A model generated the notes under the pieces. It worked only from the letters and a program-made list of their open reading frames with translations, searched no databases and was not told the origin of the DNA. Made by a program: the position numbers and the translations under genes. A stretch of DNA of 6,420 bases from an uncultured Clostridia bacterium (lineage in GTDB: Bacteria > Bacillota > Clostridia > Oscillospirales > Ruminococcaceae). Positions 17 through 6,420 of the stretch are shown piece after piece. The DNA is taken from positions 1 to 6,420 of the forward strand of contig CAMNDR010000060.1 of the NCBI GenBank assembly GCA_946535685.1. The letters run 5' to 3'. The stretch's first letter is position 1, and each line of letters begins with the position of its first letter.

Positions 17-2089
17 TTATTCCTGTGCAATGGAAGCGATAACTTCTGCAAGCAGATTGGACGGCAGCGGCTCATAGCGGAGGAACTCCATCGTAAAGCT
101 GCCCATGCCTCTGGTCACCTGACGCAGATACAGCGCAAAATCATGCATCTCACGTACCGGCACCTCTGCAGTGATGGTCGTCTCGCCCTTGGCAGCCGGC
201 TCCATGCCGAGTACACGGCCACGGCGCTTGTTCAGCTCGCCCATGATGTCGCCGGTGTTCTCATCCGGTGCGGTGACGATCAGCGTGCTGATCGGTTCGA
301 GCATCACGGGATCTGCGGCACGCATGCCCTCCTTATAGGCGATGGATGCTGCCATCTTGAATGCCATTTCAGAGGAATCTACCGGGTGGTAGGAGCCATC
401 GAGCAGGATCGCCTTCACGCCGACAACCGGGCAGCCTGCGAGCACACCCTTTCTGACGGATTCCTGCAGACCCTTTTCAACAGCCGGGAAGTAGTTCTTC
501 GGTACGGAACCGCCGAATACCCTCTCCTCGAATACCAGCGTATCGCTCACGCACGGCTCAAATGCGATCTTGACATGGCCGTACTGACCGTGACCGCCGG
601 ACTGCTTCTTGTGCTTGCCCTCGGCCTCGACCTTCTTGCGGATGGTCTCACGGTATGCGACCTGCGGCTCGGAGAGCTTGACCTCTGCGCCGAATTTCGC
701 AGCGAGCTTGGCGACAGCGATCTCAATATGCTGCTCGCCCAGACCGCTCAGGATCATTTCCTTCGTGTTCGGATCCTGCTCATAGGTCAGCGTCGGATCC
801 TCCTCTACAAGGCGCTGCATTCCGGCGGAAACCTTCGCCTCATCGCCCTGGTTCTTCGCACGGACTGCCATCGAATAGCATGCATGCGGGAATTTCGGCA
901 TTGGCACGGAAATCACCCGACCCGGTGCGCACAGCGTATCGCCCGTCAGTGCGCCGATCTTGACGGCGGCAACGATATCACCGGCCTCTGCAGCCTTGAC
1001 CTCGGTCTGCTTCTTGCCGAGGAGCGTGTAGAGCTTGCCGATCTTCTCCTCTGCGCCGGTGCGGGAATTGATGACAGCCGTATCTGCGGAGAGCTTGCCG
1101 GCGAGCACCTTGATAAAGCTCATCTTGCCGACGAACGGGTCAGCGACGGTCTTGCATACGAGCGCTGTGAGCGGTGCGGCTGCATCGCACTTGATCTCGG
1201 CAACATCATCATTGGCCTCTGCCTCTGCCGGAGTGACTTCATCGGCTGCCGGAACGAGGAGCGTGAACTCCTTGAGCAGCATGTCGATGCCTGCCAGCGT
1301 TGCTGCGGAAGTGCAGACAACAGGCGTGATCAGACCCTTGTTCATGCCGGCGTGGATGCCGTCGATCAGCTCCTTCTGCGTGAAGGCTTCACCCTCGAAG
1401 AACTTCTCCATGAGTGCCTCATCGGTCTCGGCAACGGCCTCGGAGATCGCAGCGACCAGACCTTCCAGACGATAGTCATGCTCGGTGGTCACCTCTGCGG
1501 GCATGTCAGTCTCGATGGCCTTGCCCTTTGCATCATAGGTATAGGCCTTCATCTCGATCAGGTTGATATAGGACACGATCTCGCCCTTTTCAATGACCGG
1601 AACAACGACCGGGCAAACGGTCGGGCCGAACACGGTCTTGAGATCGGTCAGGACATTGTAGAAATTGGCATCCTTGTCGTCGATCTTGGTGATGGCGAAC
1701 ATGGTGGACTTGCCCTGTGCCTGCGCAGCAGCGTAAGCCTTGCGTGTGCCGACAGCAACGCCGGACTTAGCAGATACCGTGATGAGCACAGTGTCCGCAG
1801 CGGTGATGCCGGAGAGCTGCTCCCCTGCAAAATCGAGGATACCGGGTGTATCGAGCAGGTTGATCCAGTTGTTCTCATAGGCAAAGCCGGCCAGCTTCGT
1901 GGAAATCGAACCCTTGCGGCGGATCTCTTCCGGATCATAATCGCAGACCGTTGTACCGTCAGCGATCTTGCCGAAACGGTCGGATGCACCTGCTGCATAC
2001 AGCAGTGCCTCCGCAAGCGAGGTCTTGCCGGAACTGTGATGTCCGGTCAGTGCAATGTTCTTGATGTTGCTTGCATGGAATTGGTTCAT
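17..2089 (-). CDS. EF-G-like translational GTPase (EF-G-2 / FusA paralogue type)
   Basis: This is a 690-residue protein, the usual EF-G length, with all five EF-G domains. The GTPase domain has a P-loop GHHSSGKT at 16-23, a switch I region DPEEIRRKGSIS at 52-63, G3 DTPG at 80-83 and G4 TKID at 134-137. Domain II is at about 300-390, domain III about 400-475, domain IV about 476-590 with SGGHGQYG at 497-504 and the tip segment GSYHPVDSS at 565-573, and domain V about 595-680. The serine-rich P-loop, TKID instead of NKxD, and DTPG followed by Ile84 instead of His mark it as the EF-G paralogue family related to Thermus EF-G-2, not the housekeeping translocase. His568 at the domain IV tip, which matters for translocation in EF-G, is kept. 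The protein presumably binds the ribosome in the cytoplasm, but its exact role is not established. The start is supported by AAAGGAG at 2107-2101, 11 nt upstream. The TAA stop is 16 bp from the window edge, so its terminator is not visible. Confidence 0.93.
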   Translation of the reverse strand: MNQFHASNIKNIALTGHHSSGKTSLAEALLYAAGASDRFGKIADGTTVCDYDPEEIRRKGSISTKLAGFAYENNWINLLDTPGILDFAGEQLSGITAADTVLITVSAKSGVAVGTRKAYAAAQAQGKSTMFAITKIDDKDANFYNVLTDLKTVFGPTVCPVVVPVIEKGEIVSYINLIEMKAYTYDAKGKAIETDMPAEVTTEHDYRLEGLVAAISEAVAETDEALMEKFFEGEAFTQKELIDGIHAGMNKGLITPVVCTSAATLAGIDMLLKEFTLLVPAADEVTPAEAEANDDVAEIKCDAAAPLTALVCKTVADPFVGKMSFIKVLAGKLSADTAVINSRTGAEEKIGKLYTLLGKKQTEVKAAEAGDIVAAVKIGALTGDTLCAPGRVISVPMPKFPHACYSMAVRAKNQGDEAKVSAGMQRLVEEDPTLTYEQDPNTKEMILSGLGEQHIEIAVAKLAAKFGAEVKLSEPQVAYRETIRKKVEAEGKHKKQSGGHGQYGHVKIAFEPCVSDTLVFEERVFGGSVPKNYFPAVEKGLQESVRKGVLAGCPVVGVKAILLDGSYHPVDSSEMAFKMAASIAYKEGMRAADPVMLEPISTLIVTAPDENTGDIMGELNKRRGRVLGMEPAAKGETTITAEVPVREMHDFALYLRQVTRGMGSFTMEFLRYEPLPSNLLAEVIASIAQE

Positions 2090-2223: not shown

Positions 2224-2249
2224 ATAGTTTACATGATAGTTAAACTATC
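2224..2249. repeat. AT-rich dyad-symmetric repeats, possible operator
   Basis: Two overlapping inverted repeats occur here. GATAGTT-A-AACTATC is a perfect 7-bp dyad at 2235-2249, and ATAGTTTA (2224-2231) pairs with TAAACTAT (2241-2248) across 9 bp. They share arms, so only one can form at a time. A smaller dyad of the same kind, ATAG-ACA-CTAT, lies at 2162-2172 over the predicted transcription start. The placement upstream of the -35 box and over the start fits binding sites for a dimeric regulator. The first dyad also begins 12 nt after the stop of the upstream gene, but lacks GC pairs and a T tract, so it would be a poor terminator. Confidence 0.35.
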
Positions 2250-2260
2250 TTTGTGCATAT

Positions 2261-3835
2261 TCAACAAATCTCAAGCTGCCCTTCCGGCGTCAGAAGGATC
2301 GTTTTCATCTCCGGCTGCGCAGTCAGGAGCGGTGTCAGGTCTGTCATATCATTCCCAAAGCCCGTCCGGTCCAGCGGCATGCCGAACACGCCGTTGGTCG
2401 CATTGCGGATGCCGTCGATCGTGAGCATGCCGCCGTTCTGTGTTGCGATCTCTCCGCAGACCTCCAGACACAATGCTGTCAGGCCACGGTAGGTCTCGCC
2501 GTTCTTGCAGCGACCCTTGACATCGGAATCAAGGTTGAACGACTGCAGATCCTCGCTGAACCAGATGCGCTGCTGCGCAAAGAACAGGTTTTCCGCATCC
2601 TGACGGCCGCCATAGGAGAACCGGTCGCCTTCCTTGAAGAAGCAATAGGGTGCATGCCCGTGCAGGATGCAGGCGTGATCCTCCAGAAGTGCTTCACGGG
2701 ACGGCCAGATCTTGCCCTGCAGGTATTTGGAATACAGGCCGTTGCGTGACCAGATGATCTGCCGGAGCGGGCCGTTATAACCGGCAACAGACGCATCCAG
2801 GCGATAGGCATAGACAGCCTTGTCCGGATCGGCTGCCATATCCGCACGGATGAAATCGAAGGCACTCGCCAGCATCCCCGCATGGACGATGTAATAGTTC
2901 ATCTGCTTCCCACGGAGCGCAAGGATATCCGGCTGATTCTCCAGCGGATACCACGGGCTGAGCTCCCGTTCATGATTGCCCCGGATCAGGTGGAAACCGG
3001 GCTGGCTGTAATCCGCTGCATAGTGCTTGGCGATCACCTGCAGAAGTGCGTGTACATTTCCGCCGCTGTTGTAATCACCGACAAAATAAACATGATCCTT
3101 TTCCGGATCAAAGCAGATCTTCTTCAGGAGCAGTTCAAGCGTCCGGGCCTCTCCGTGCGTATCACCGACCACAAAATGCAGCCCGTCCGGATAGGCTTCC
3201 CGAAGCTGCAGGATGTTGTCATCCGCACGGTCAAGGATGCGGCGTTCACGGTGGTTCAGGAGGTTTTGTGAAGCACAATACTCCGTGATGCGGCTCTTGG
3301 CCGCCTCCATCTGCGCCAGGGAATCGGCTTCGCTGCGATCCAGGCCGTCTGCCTTGAACAGTACACATTCCGGGATGCCGTAGATGCGCTCTGCAAGCTC
3401 CTTGACATAGTCAAAGCCAAACGTGTCCGACGTATCCGGATCACCGGAGGTCGTCACATAATACAGCTTCTGCGCCTTACAAAGGCCAAAGGGAACGTTT
3501 TTCTCCGAATATCCAAAGGTCAGTCCGATGACGCTGATCTGCTCAAAATACTGCTTGAGCACCGCCGGGAACGACAGATCCCAGTAAGGCGCAGCAATCA
3601 CGATGAGATCCGCTGCGGCAAACTGCTTTGCGAGATCAAAATACGGCGCACGGAAGTCCTTTGCCAGCGCCTCTGCCCTGCGGCGGTTGAGAAATTCCTC
3701 ATCCATTTCCGGGAACTGTATGTTCCGGAGCTGCACATGCGTCATATCACCCCTGAGCCGCCGCAGAAGATGGTTAGCCAGCTCCGCTGTCCGTGACCTG
3801 GCGCGGATCGTTGCATCAATATACAGGATTTTCAT
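2261..3835 (-). CDS. AzoR-like flavin oxidoreductase fused to PPP-type metallophosphatase
   Basis: This is one uninterrupted 524-residue ORF with two catalytic folds. Residues 1-190 form a flavodoxin-like domain of the NAD(P)H-quinone/azoreductase type (Flavodoxin_2). It starts with a beta strand MKILYIDAT, has APYWDLSFPAVLKQYF at 82-97 matching the AzoR FMN loop, then the GLTFGYSE segment near 104-111 and TTSGD at 128-132. A charged linker of about 30 residues follows. Residues 219-524 form a calcineurin-like PPP phosphatase: GDTHG 224-228, GDYNSGG 253-259, RGNHE 285-289, VHAG 317-320 and HGHAPY 392-397. The expected two-metal ligands Asp225, His227, Asp254, Asn287, His318 and His392 are present, but the usual GDxVDRG Asp-Arg pair is replaced. 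There is no signal peptide or membrane segment, so the protein is cytoplasmic. It starts 7 bp after prmA with no good ribosome binding site, which suggests translational coupling. The flavin substrate and the phosphatase target are unknown. Confidence 0.85.
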   Translation of the reverse strand: MKILYIDATIRARSRTAELANHLLRRLRGDMTHVQLRNIQFPEMDEEFLNRRRAEALAKDFRAPYFDLAKQFAAADLIVIAAPYWDLSFPAVLKQYFEQISVIGLTFGYSEKNVPFGLCKAQKLYYVTTSGDPDTSDTFGFDYVKELAERIYGIPECVLFKADGLDRSEADSLAQMEAAKSRITEYCASQNLLNHRERRILDRADDNILQLREAYPDGLHFVVGDTHGEARTLELLLKKICFDPEKDHVYFVGDYNSGGNVHALLQVIAKHYAADYSQPGFHLIRGNHERELSPWYPLENQPDILALRGKQMNYYIVHAGMLASAFDFIRADMAADPDKAVYAYRLDASVAGYNGPLRQIIWSRNGLYSKYLQGKIWPSREALLEDHACILHGHAPYCFFKEGDRFSYGGRQDAENLFFAQQRIWFSEDLQSFNLDSDVKGRCKNGETYRGLTALCLEVCGEIATQNGGMLTIDGIRNATNGVFGMPLDRTGFGNDMTDLTPLLTAQPEMKTILLTPEGQLEIC

Positions 3836-3842
3836 AACTTCA

Positions 3843-4814
3843 TCATTTCAGACGGAGCAGTGCTGCAGCCCACCCTTCCTTTTCACGGACATCGAGCTTC
3901 TCAAAACCTGCTGCCGTGAGCGTATCGAGCACTTCATCCGCACGCTCGATGATGATGCCGGAGACGATCAGGCTGCCGCCGGGCTTCAGGAAGCTCTCAA
4001 ACAGCCCGGACATGGCGATCAGCACATCTGCCACGATATTCGCGCAGATCAGGTCGTAGCCTGTGCCGAGCTTCTCCCGGAGCGCAGTATCGCTGATGAT
4101 ATCGCCGCAGTACGCAGTATAGCGGTCTGCGCCGATGCCGTTCTTGCCGGCGTTCTCGATCGCTGTGCGCACGGAATTGTCCACAATATCCACAGCGGCC
4201 GCCTCCTTTGCGCCGAGCAGAATCGTGCCGATGGAGAGGATGCCGCTCCCGCAGCCGAGATCGAGCACACGGTCTCCCTCCTGCAGCACGCTCTCTGCAA
4301 GCTCCAGGCACAGCCGGGTGGTGTGATGCTGCCCCGTGCCGAAGCTCGATGCAGGGTCGATCTCGAGCACCGTTCTGTCCTCACAGCCCGCCGGGATCTC
4401 CTCCCAGGACGGCTTGATGAGGAGCTTTCTGCCGATCTGCAGGGGCTTGAAATACTGCTTCCAGTTGTTCGCCCAGTCCTCCTCGCTGACATTGCCGCAC
4501 TGCAGCGCAAGGCTGCCGTAAAATGCGGCATGCTCGCCGCTGCGCAGCCCAGCGAGCAGGCTGCGCACGCCGTTTAACTGCTCTGCGCCCTGTGCATCAT
4601 CCGGGAGATAGAAGGTCACGGTCGTGTCACAGTCCTTCAGTCCCATCAGATCATCGTCGATATAATCCCACTTGCCGTCCTTGTCATCCAGAAATTCCTG
4701 GAAGCTCTCCTTGTCCTGGATGGAAAAGCCCTTGACACCGTGATCGGTCAGCAGCGCACAAAGCGCATCCACAGCGGGCGTTTCAGTACGGATCGTTACT
4801 TCAAACCAGTTCAT
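3843..4814 (-). CDS. prmA: Ribosomal protein L11 methyltransferase
   Basis: PrmA transfers methyl groups from S-adenosylmethionine to ribosomal protein L11 in the cytoplasm. The N-terminal L11-recognition domain spans about 1-115 and contains an acidic stretch near 42-62, as in Gram-positive members, which accounts for 323 residues against about 293 in E. coli. The diagnostic WANNWKQYFKP is at 114-124, and GTGQHHTT at 159-166 is the family signature. The class I methyltransferase fold shows DLGCGSGIL at 185-193 (cofactor loop), the acidic AVDIVDNS at 207-214 and NIVADVL at 259-265, the substrate-side motif. The start has a near-perfect AAGGAGG 6 nt upstream. The gene ends TGATGA, 7 bp before the next gene. 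In many Clostridia prmA is followed by rsmE, but here an oxidoreductase-phosphatase fusion takes that place. Confidence 0.96.
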   Translation of the reverse strand: MNWFEVTIRTETPAVDALCALLTDHGVKGFSIQDKESFQEFLDDKDGKWDYIDDDLMGLKDCDTTVTFYLPDDAQGAEQLNGVRSLLAGLRSGEHAAFYGSLALQCGNVSEEDWANNWKQYFKPLQIGRKLLIKPSWEEIPAGCEDRTVLEIDPASSFGTGQHHTTRLCLELAESVLQEGDRVLDLGCGSGILSIGTILLGAKEAAAVDIVDNSVRTAIENAGKNGIGADRYTAYCGDIISDTALREKLGTGYDLICANIVADVLIAMSGLFESFLKPGGSLIVSGIIIERADEVLDTLTAAGFEKLDVREKEGWAAALLRLK

Positions 4815-4865: not shown

Positions 4866-6420
4866 TCATGCTTTCTTTGCCCTGCGCTCGGCCTTTCTCC
4901 GCTCACGGGCAAGGCGTTTCTGTTCCTTGACATAGCGCTTGTGCGCTTCATCCCACCGGATATAGGCAGCGGCTGCCTCCGCAGACTGCTGTCCGGCATC
5001 ACTGCTGTAGAGCCGTTCATCAAGCTGCGTATACAGCACCTGCTCTGCGAAGAACGGTGCAGATGCATCCGCAAGCTCATTGACCGTGGTGCTCTCCGGC
5101 AGGCGCATCGTTTTCCGCATGCGGCAGAAGATCGCAGAAGCAGCTTCCACGGGCGTGAGCTTCTGCAGGCGGCTCCGGAACAGCTTCTCCCGGATCATCG
5201 GCATCATCAGCCAGATCACCAGCACGATCAGTGCCAGTGCCAGCATCACGAAGCCCCAGCGCATGACGTTCAGGTTCTCGGCGGTACCGTTCTCCTCCAG
5301 TGCGTCTGCGGCGATCGTCGGTTCAAAGCTCACCCAGCCGTATCCTGCGATATAGACCTCCGGGAATGCATGGGCATCCCTTGCCTTGATGACAAAGTTT
5401 GTGTTCCATTCTTCTCCGTCTGTAAAACGGATGCGGTTGTCGTACCGCTCGCCCATGTTATAGCCCACGGCACAGCGTGCCGGAAGCCCTGCACTGCGGC
5501 AGAGCAGCGTCATGGCAGTGGCATATTCCCAGCAGACACCACGGTGCGTGGTCAGCAGGAAATCTTCAACATTCTCACCGGGCGCCTTCTGGTAGGCCAT
5601 GTCATAGAGATATTCCCCGTTGCCGAAATACTGCTCGATGGCAAGCGCTTTTTCCAGATCAGAGTCCAGACCCTCCGTAAGCTGTGCGGCAAGCGCATCG
5701 ACCGCCTCCGGACGCCAGTCCTCCTCATCCGTCATTGCCAGATAAGCATCTGCATCCTCCGCCTCCGCCTGTGCCTGCAGCAGGAGCGCTGCTGCATCAG
5801 CGTCACGTTCCTGCAGCACATCCGCTGCATCGCCGAGCAAAGCTGCATAGTCTTCGTGCTGCAGATAATGCAGCACCTCACGGACACGCCCGGATCGTGC
5901 ATAGGTATCCGGGTAATAGTTCGCAGTAACAGTCGAATAGCCGATCTTCATCGTGCCGGTCGGCGATGTCTGGATCGCTGTGTAATCACTCGGATGGTCG
6001 ATCGAATAGGTTCTGGTCGGAGCGATCAGAACATCAGCAGGGCGCCAGGATACGCTGGCAACAGAGATCTGATACCTGAACTGCTCCGGCAGCTCCGCAC
6101 CGGCAGTCTCCTGCAGACCATAGCGTGCAGCAAACGCCGCATCCGCCTCTGCCGCATCGCAGATCGCCTGCAGCAGATCCTGTGGTCTGTAGGTCAGGGG
6201 CTCCGTATAGGGCAGCGTCGGGCGGTCATAATCGGAGGCATTCCAACTGTCATCCTCGTGATAATACGTAAACGTCTGCGTCCGCAGCCGCAGTGATTCC
6301 GGTGAGATGACATAGAACAGCGTCCGGGCATTGTTGTTGGACAGGCCGCGGTTATCCGTGGACTCCATAAAGGACGAGATCATCGACATCAGCGTATCAG
6401 ACCATGTGCTGTAGGACATG
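4866..6420 (-). CDS. TgpA-type membrane transglutaminase, C-terminal part (5' end outside window)
   Basis: The reading frame is open at the window edge. The visible 517 residues begin at Met (6419-6417), but the true start is probably further upstream, because this family normally has a multi-helix membrane N-terminus. Residues about 38-60 (SPESLRLRTQTFTYYHEDDSW) resemble the extracytoplasmic segment that follows those helices. The transglutaminase-like core lies at about 250-370, with the nucleophile in GVCWEYATA (Cys296), DAHAFPEVY (His350) and WVSFEPT (Glu366 where many members have Asp). One membrane helix follows at about 387-408, then a cytoplasmic DUF4129-like region at about 420-490 and a Lys/Arg-rich tail at 494-517. 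An Ala/Asp/Glu-rich stretch occupies about 186-240. Relatives often sit beside MoxR ATPase and DUF58 genes, which might lie off-window. The substrate is unknown; roles in cell-envelope protein processing or crosslinking are inferred from the family. Confidence 0.85.
   Translation of the reverse strand, partial: MSYSTWSDTLMSMISSFMESTDNRGLSNNNARTLFYVISPESLRLRTQTFTYYHEDDSWNASDYDRPTLPYTEPLTYRPQDLLQAICDAAEADAAFAARYGLQETAGAELPEQFRYQISVASVSWRPADVLIAPTRTYSIDHPSDYTAIQTSPTGTMKIGYSTVTANYYPDTYARSGRVREVLHYLQHEDYAALLGDAADVLQERDADAAALLLQAQAEAEDADAYLAMTDEEDWRPEAVDALAAQLTEGLDSDLEKALAIEQYFGNGEYLYDMAYQKAPGENVEDFLLTTHRGVCWEYATAMTLLCRSAGLPARCAVGYNMGERYDNRIRFTDGEEWNTNFVIKARDAHAFPEVYIAGYGWVSFEPTIAADALEENGTAENLNVMRWGFVMLALALIVLVIWLMMPMIREKLFRSRLQKLTPVEAASAIFCRMRKTMRLPESTTVNELADASAPFFAEQVLYTQLDERLYSSDAGQQSAEAAAAYIRWDEAHKRYVKEQKRLARERRKAERRAKKA

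Follow-up and report, generated by a model that had tools for sequence, protein, structure and literature searches.

Can one bacterial gene join a flavin reductase to a phosphatase and, if it does, does either half control the other? The question is raised by an open reading frame (ORF) in the 6,420-base stretch analyzed here (the window), which is an entire contig (CAMNDR010000060.1) of a draft genome from an uncultured Ruminococcaceae bacterium, likely of gut or rumen origin (1.46 Mb, 292 contigs, 59% complete). An earlier reading made from the letters of the DNA (the sequence-only reading) had seen in this ORF an azoreductase-type domain followed by a PPP-type phosphatase, an order that it did not know from any characterized protein, and had suggested that one activity controls the other, for example with dephosphorylation gated by the redox state of the flavin or by the supply of NAD(P)H. 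We find that the fusion is real: one gene encodes two domains. Our preferred interpretation, held with moderate confidence, is that this genuine fusion, found also in two database proteins, pairs an azoreductase-type domain with a phosphatase that best matches ApaH (symmetrical bis(5'-nucleosyl)-tetraphosphatase), and that the protein likely forms a dimer whose two activities are largely independent. The gene and its parts are as follows.

2261-3835, minus strand: fusion gene, azoreductase-type plus ApaH-like/PPP-type phosphatase domain, 524 amino acids (aa) (ORF, Pfam, database relatives)
3287-3835, minus strand: Flavodoxin_2/azoreductase-type domain, residues 1-183 (Pfam, AlphaFold2, Foldseek)
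3566-3589, minus strand: flavin mononucleotide (FMN)-loop region PYWDLSFP, residues 83-90 (conservation in relatives)
3440-3445, minus strand: G131-D132, where residue 132 is Gly in 105/105 relatives and Asp in the window and database protein P0001
3308-3310, minus strand: in-frame ATG, codon 176 (start-codon scan)
3221-3286, minus strand: linker, residues 184-205, junction of two former genes (comparison with split genes in contig L058 and with database protein P0002)
2264-3220, minus strand: ApaH-like/PPP-type phosphatase domain, residues 206-524 (Pfam; structure matches over 218-491)
3152-3166, minus strand: phosphatase motif 1, GDTHG, residues 224-228 (D225 and H227 in 130/130 relatives)
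3059-3079, minus strand: phosphatase motif 2, GDYNSGG, residues 253-259 (second Asp and Arg of GDxxDRG absent)
2969-2980, minus strand: phosphatase motif 3, GNHE, residues 286-289 (N287, H288, and E289 in 130/130 relatives)
2876-2884, minus strand: phosphatase motif 4, HAG, residues 318-320 (H318 in 130/130 relatives)
2654-2662, minus strand: phosphatase motif 5, HGH, residues 392-394 (H394 in 130/130 relatives)

The ORF is uninterrupted, as had been claimed; its 524 codons lie on the minus strand, and the plus strand over the same interval contains stops. The protein matches Pfam families Flavodoxin_2 over residues 1 to 183 (E = 1.2e-21), FMN_red over residues 1 to 102 (E = 2e-10), and Metallophos over residues 222 to 326 (E = 9.5e-11), with Flavodoxin_2 and Metallophos both exceeding their gathering scores. 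The sequence-only reading had suggested a search for proteins with Flavodoxin_2 followed by Metallophos. Among about 5.8 billion proteins, searched by a method that detects only relatives sharing short exact words and that scored the 7,996 candidates richest in such words for the full protein, only two others carry both domains: P0001 (494 aa, 98% identical, spanning residues 31 to 524) and P0002 (531 aa, 61% identical over 100% of the length). Both keep the same domain order and an open junction. The same two, and no others, were recovered with both domains when each half was used as a query against longer proteins (104 matches to the reductase half among proteins of 288 to 917 aa, 22 to the phosphatase half among proteins of 451 to 1,435 aa).

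Could an error of sequencing, assembly, or frame have merged two neighboring genes? The window genome is a fragmented draft, and a close relative, genome G024, does carry the two domains as adjacent genes. P0001 and P0002, however, sit on other contigs and have the same open junction; each differs from the window by its own substitutions, which rules out copies of a single sequence. A frame or sequencing error is for this reason very unlikely, and we dropped the artefact explanation as having next to no probability. Of the two signs against a fusion that the sequence-only reading had named together, split orthologues in a close relative are thus present, but a sequencing error at the junction is not. 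Nor is there an evident internal start for the phosphatase, again as had been stated: across codons 151 to 221, the ATG at codon 176 is the sole in-frame ATG, GTG, or TTG (CTG codons also occur), no Shine-Dalgarno-like run lies within the 20 bases preceding it, and the next in-frame candidate is a GTG at codon 222, beside motif 1. We found no second match to the fusion protein in its own draft genome (59% complete) and, judging by titles and opening lines of abstracts in the open-licence literature, no description of an azoreductase-phosphatase fusion; the architecture is new, and its parts are known.

The N-terminal half resembles AzoR and the NAD(P)H:quinone oxidoreductases (PF02525) in fold, in its above-cut-off Pfam match (77.8 bits for Flavodoxin_2; gathering score, 27), and in its FMN-loop region. 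A separate AlphaFold2 model of this half (predicted local distance difference test [pLDDT], 92.8) matches the AzoR-FMN complex 8h4j (8h4j_E) in Foldseek with a template modeling (TM) score of 0.80 and an E value of 3.5e-13. Our structural claims for the reductase rest on this model; for most of this half, the full-length model draws on only three alignment rows, and its pLDDT falls below 50 at residues 108 to 116. The FMN loop noted earlier is present, with PYWDLSFP nearly invariant in 23 relatives (alignment A4), D86 found in 105/105 and W85 in 103/105, and the S14-R15-T16 segment and other conserved positions are intact. These conservation counts, and those given below, cover 105 reductase and 130 phosphatase relatives and were first made on chosen rows (23 in A4 and 48 in A3).

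Unlike AzoR, the window protein is fused to a phosphatase, falls well under the cut-off of the NCBIfam azoreductase models (35 bits versus 188 for NF010075), and has D132 in place of a loop glycine. The TTxGG segment here reads TTSGD. P0001 shares the Asp at 132, whereas the other 105 relatives, G024 among them, all have Gly; P0002, also fused, retains the GG loop. In AzoR, the equivalent loop contacts the flavin. By analogy with AzoR relatives, the reductase half would dimerize and, if FMN is still bound despite D132, could use NAD(P)H to reduce acceptors of the quinone or azo type. Among the 104 long relatives of this half, 78 are joined to a C39/C70-type peptidase domain.

The C-terminal half shares with ApaH and the PPP phosphatases the ligand motifs GDxHG, GD, GNHE, H, and GH. 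The PPP motif list used here (GDxHG, GNHE, and the metal-binding His residues) comes from PMC8220851. All of the metal ligands (D225, H227, D254, N287, H318, and H394) are identical in 130/130 relatives, as are H288 and E289 of GNHE. The claim of a complete PPP motif set thus stands for the metal ligands but not for motif 2, which differs from that of ApaH and other PPP enzymes: at the Asp position of GDxxDRG (residue 257), Asp occurs in 2/130 relatives, and at the Arg position (residue 258), Gly occurs in 122, a residue other than Gly in 8, and Arg in none. We found no description of this phosphatase family, the GDYNxGG motif itself not having been searched for in the literature. ApaH models are the best named match for 31/31 phosphatase relatives, and among solved structures, which align over residues 218 to 491, ApaH is among the top, though tied, phosphatase rows. 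Because the best-matching models are those of ApaH and the partners of the family include DUF1810 and microbial PARG, the phosphatase half is predicted to act on a nucleotide-type substrate. With two metal ions, it would hydrolyze a phosphate or phosphoanhydride of nucleotide type, not a phosphoprotein. The fusion itself is of modest novelty; the more interesting thread is the family to which it points, a GDYNxGG phosphatase family without the motif-2 Arg yet with every metal ligand, and with links to DUF1810 and PARG.

Is the phosphatase controlled by the redox state of the flavin domain on the same chain, or by NAD(P)H supply? Such gating would fit the presence of both domains on one chain and the occurrence of the fusion at 98% and 61% identity. 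It would also fit the constraint on both halves relative to unfused relatives, which is indicated by a ratio of nonsynonymous to synonymous substitution rates (dN/dS) of about 0.2 to 0.3 for each half (0.19 to 0.31, NG86), an approximate value, dS being close to saturation. The company that the phosphatase keeps argues otherwise. Among the best 120 of 261 phosphatase matches, 110 are free-standing, 7 lie behind DUF1810, 1 precedes PARG, and 2 are the reductase fusions, and among the long phosphatase proteins, DUF1810 is the commonest partner (19/22). A scan of GTDB contigs with alignment A1 gave 26 loci, 19 of them strong (E <= 3e-95); the reductase is adjacent in only one of the strong loci (L058) and DUF1810 is fused in four, some flanks being short. 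Further, G024 keeps the two domains as separate genes, the loop on the flavin side has lost its otherwise invariant glycine, and the linker is unconserved, with the two kinds of fusion differing in linker length and composition. A variable linker together with free-standing relatives argues against one active site controlling the other. The gating proposal found no positive support, and we consider it improbable. Judged from these sequence comparisons, the halves likely do separate jobs, neither switching the other, and fusion would secure equal amounts and colocalization of the two.

Several observations weigh against our preferred interpretation of an ApaH-matching fusion with two largely independent activities. 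The ApaH scores of the window protein (32.4 bits) and of the free-standing relative P0004 (33.6 bits) lie far below the cut-off of 176 bits. ApaH keeps the motif-2 Arg that this family is without; PMC8220851 is in line with this. The independence of the two activities is provisional, the full-length model having a predicted TM score (pTM) of 0.69 and a linker pLDDT of about 70. On the reductase side, the branch of the window lineage is the longest in its clade (0.60; P0002 has 0.28, and G024 and genome G005 have about 0.20 by path). With this long branch and the loss of an invariant loop glycine, the reductase half may have ceased to function as a flavin enzyme. It could instead have become, after the fusion, a flavin-poor dimerization scaffold for the phosphatase, as the same branch and the Asp shared with P0001, against Gly in 105/105 relatives, would suggest. 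The low dN/dS, the retention of PYWDLSFP, S14-R15-T16, and other conserved positions, and the GG loop of the equally fused P0002 make this alternative unlikely.

The partners of the family suggest a different connection. The DUF1810-phosphatase and phosphatase-PARG fusions (such as P0065, P0055, and P0223) contain the same phosphatase family, and in the DUF1810-phosphatase proteins the partner is N-terminal to the phosphatase, as in the window; they differ from the window fusion in that the partner is DUF1810 or microbial PARG and not an azoreductase-type domain. PARG occurs in 2/22 long proteins: P0055 (820 aa) joins phosphatase and PARG, and the single chain of P0223 (1,036 aa) combines DUF1810 with a phosphatase of the GDYNxGG type and a PARG of the microbial type. 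Reductase relatives P0149, P0171, and P0181 are fused to a Macro domain (3/104 long matches). Each half, as its database matches indicate, belongs to a family with further fusion partners. In section 3.8 of PMC9503650, calcineurin-like phosphatases are coupled to ADP-ribosyl glycohydrolases and proposed to process released ADP-ribose, and PMC11833690 describes a PARG operon containing a phosphatase-kinase. With these observations, an ADP-ribose or nucleotide role for the phosphatase family is plausible.

Applied to the window, this connection would have the phosphatase process ADP-ribose-derived or dinucleotide products, with the reductase as its connection to the pool of NAD(P)H. The PARG and Macro fusions and the coupling described in PMC9503650 would fit such a system. 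The fusions are few, however, the other three window genes match no ADP-ribose family in Pfam, neither the window protein nor four database proteins have a match in PADLOC, and no paper assigning a function to DUF1810 was found in the open-licence literature; we give this explanation a low probability. A broader form, in which a GDYNxGG phosphohydrolase module of the ApaH/PPP lineage in gut and rumen bacteria, joined variously to DUF1810, PARG, and the azoreductase-type domain, cleans up ADP-ribose- or dinucleotide-type products and is tied here to an NAD(P)H-consuming flavoprotein, is speculative and distinctly unlikely. If the family does act on such products, a small NAD-related pathway of gut bacteria would emerge from the links to PARG, DUF1810, and a flavin reductase; if not, the fusion cautions that joining two catalytic domains need not imply regulation of one by the other.

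By the titles of their metagenome-assembled genomes (MAGs), 18 of the 19 strong phosphatase loci belong to Clostridia-class bacteria and 1 to Solobacterium, from gut or rumen where a source is named. With the window's own genome counted, the phosphatase is found in 1/396 family and 2/394 order genomes (E <= 1e-20) and in 3/391 class genomes (E <= 1e-60); scanning GTDB contigs with the full-length fusion protein gave no match. No shared operon partner emerged among 20 neighbor ORFs at 12 of the 19 strong loci (taken from 115 listed by a choice that favored close same-strand genes), several of which are without a Pfam match. The neighbors are mixed, including a tRNA_U5-meth_tr-type methyltransferase (2 loci), a metallophosphatase (2 loci), a DNA glycosylase, a TIR domain, and others. 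The metallophosphatase-family ORFs adjoin the phosphatase relative at L043:5335-5952 and L051:7158-7763, and a free-standing relative is followed, some 500 bases downstream, by the small TIR_2-domain ORF (L061:3357-3713). A defense system was set aside on the PADLOC result. Carriage by phage or plasmid was likewise dropped: a search with P0004 gave only two phage records and one plasmid record, covering 22 to 25% of the query at 36 to 37% identity, and no viral contig searched with alignment A1 encodes a phosphatase relative.

How did the fusion arise? Its neighbors in the window define the site at which relatives can be compared.

3843-4814, minus strand: prmA (ribosomal protein L11 methyltransferase), upstream neighbor (TIGR00406, 205.7 bits; cut-off, 183.15)
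17-2089, minus strand: EF-G-like GTPase gene, downstream neighbor (NF009381, 836.7 bits; cut-off, 583)
4866-6419, minus strand: gene upstream of prmA for a transglutaminase-core protein whose C-terminal end is rich in Lys and Arg (starts at the contig edge, possibly incomplete)

The fusion start codon lies 7 bases from prmA, and 171 bases separate the fusion gene from the EF-G-like gene. Among 38 genomes of the same genus, prmA loci were compared in 30, and the reductase follows prmA in three of these: the window, G024, and G005. Neither domain was seen in the other 27, several contigs ending too soon to tell, and a whole-protein search of 61 genomes gave no match on a prmA contig in the remaining 8 genus genomes. 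G032 has one weak whole-protein match, on a contig other than its prmA contig. In G024 (contig L058, Oscillospiraceae MAG RUI441), the same prmA/EF-G site holds separate genes for a 189-aa reductase and a 332-aa phosphatase; they lie 2 nucleotides apart, and the end of the reductase gene includes a Shine-Dalgarno-like GGAGG. G005 has the reductase alone at this site, and G013 has neither domain, with about 300 bases from prmA to EF-G. The fusion can thus be seen next to close relatives that retain its split, half-empty, and empty forms. The simplest account of the fusion would be that two accessory genes, adjacent and coupled in translation as in G024, lost the stop that separated them.

Between the window and G024, G005, and G013, prmA is 92 to 94% identical (94% for G024) and EF-G 95 to 97% (partial in G005 and G013); the reductase is only 63% and the phosphatase 56% identical. 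Divergence from G024 at four-fold sites is 0.55 to 0.56 in the cassette versus 0.36 to 0.43 in the flanks, on small site counts (88 and 63), and the cassette could have been replaced by a divergent copy. In trees built on chosen rows (46/134 for the phosphatase; 28/107 plus 3 from other loci for the reductase), one clade (99/92) unites the phosphatases of the window, P0001, P0002, and G024, and another (98/91) the reductases of these four and G005. In a first phosphatase tree, G024, with its split genes, was the neighbor of the fused P0002 (100/96), which would imply two fusions or one fission. A tree holding the three fused rows together has a log-likelihood 13.7 higher (approximately unbiased test, p-AU = 0.766). 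The G024-P0002 nesting is therefore untrustworthy, and a single fusion is possible.

Downstream, the EF-G-like protein exceeds the NF009381 subfamily cut-off but misses that of the canonical EF-G equivalog TIGR00484 (549.7 versus 659.4 bits), for which reason the gene likely encodes an EF-G paralogue. A near-palindrome, GATAGTTAAACTATC, lies upstream of this gene at window positions 2235 to 2249; it has few changes in G024 and G005, is partial in G013, and could be an operator in the leader of the EF-G gene.
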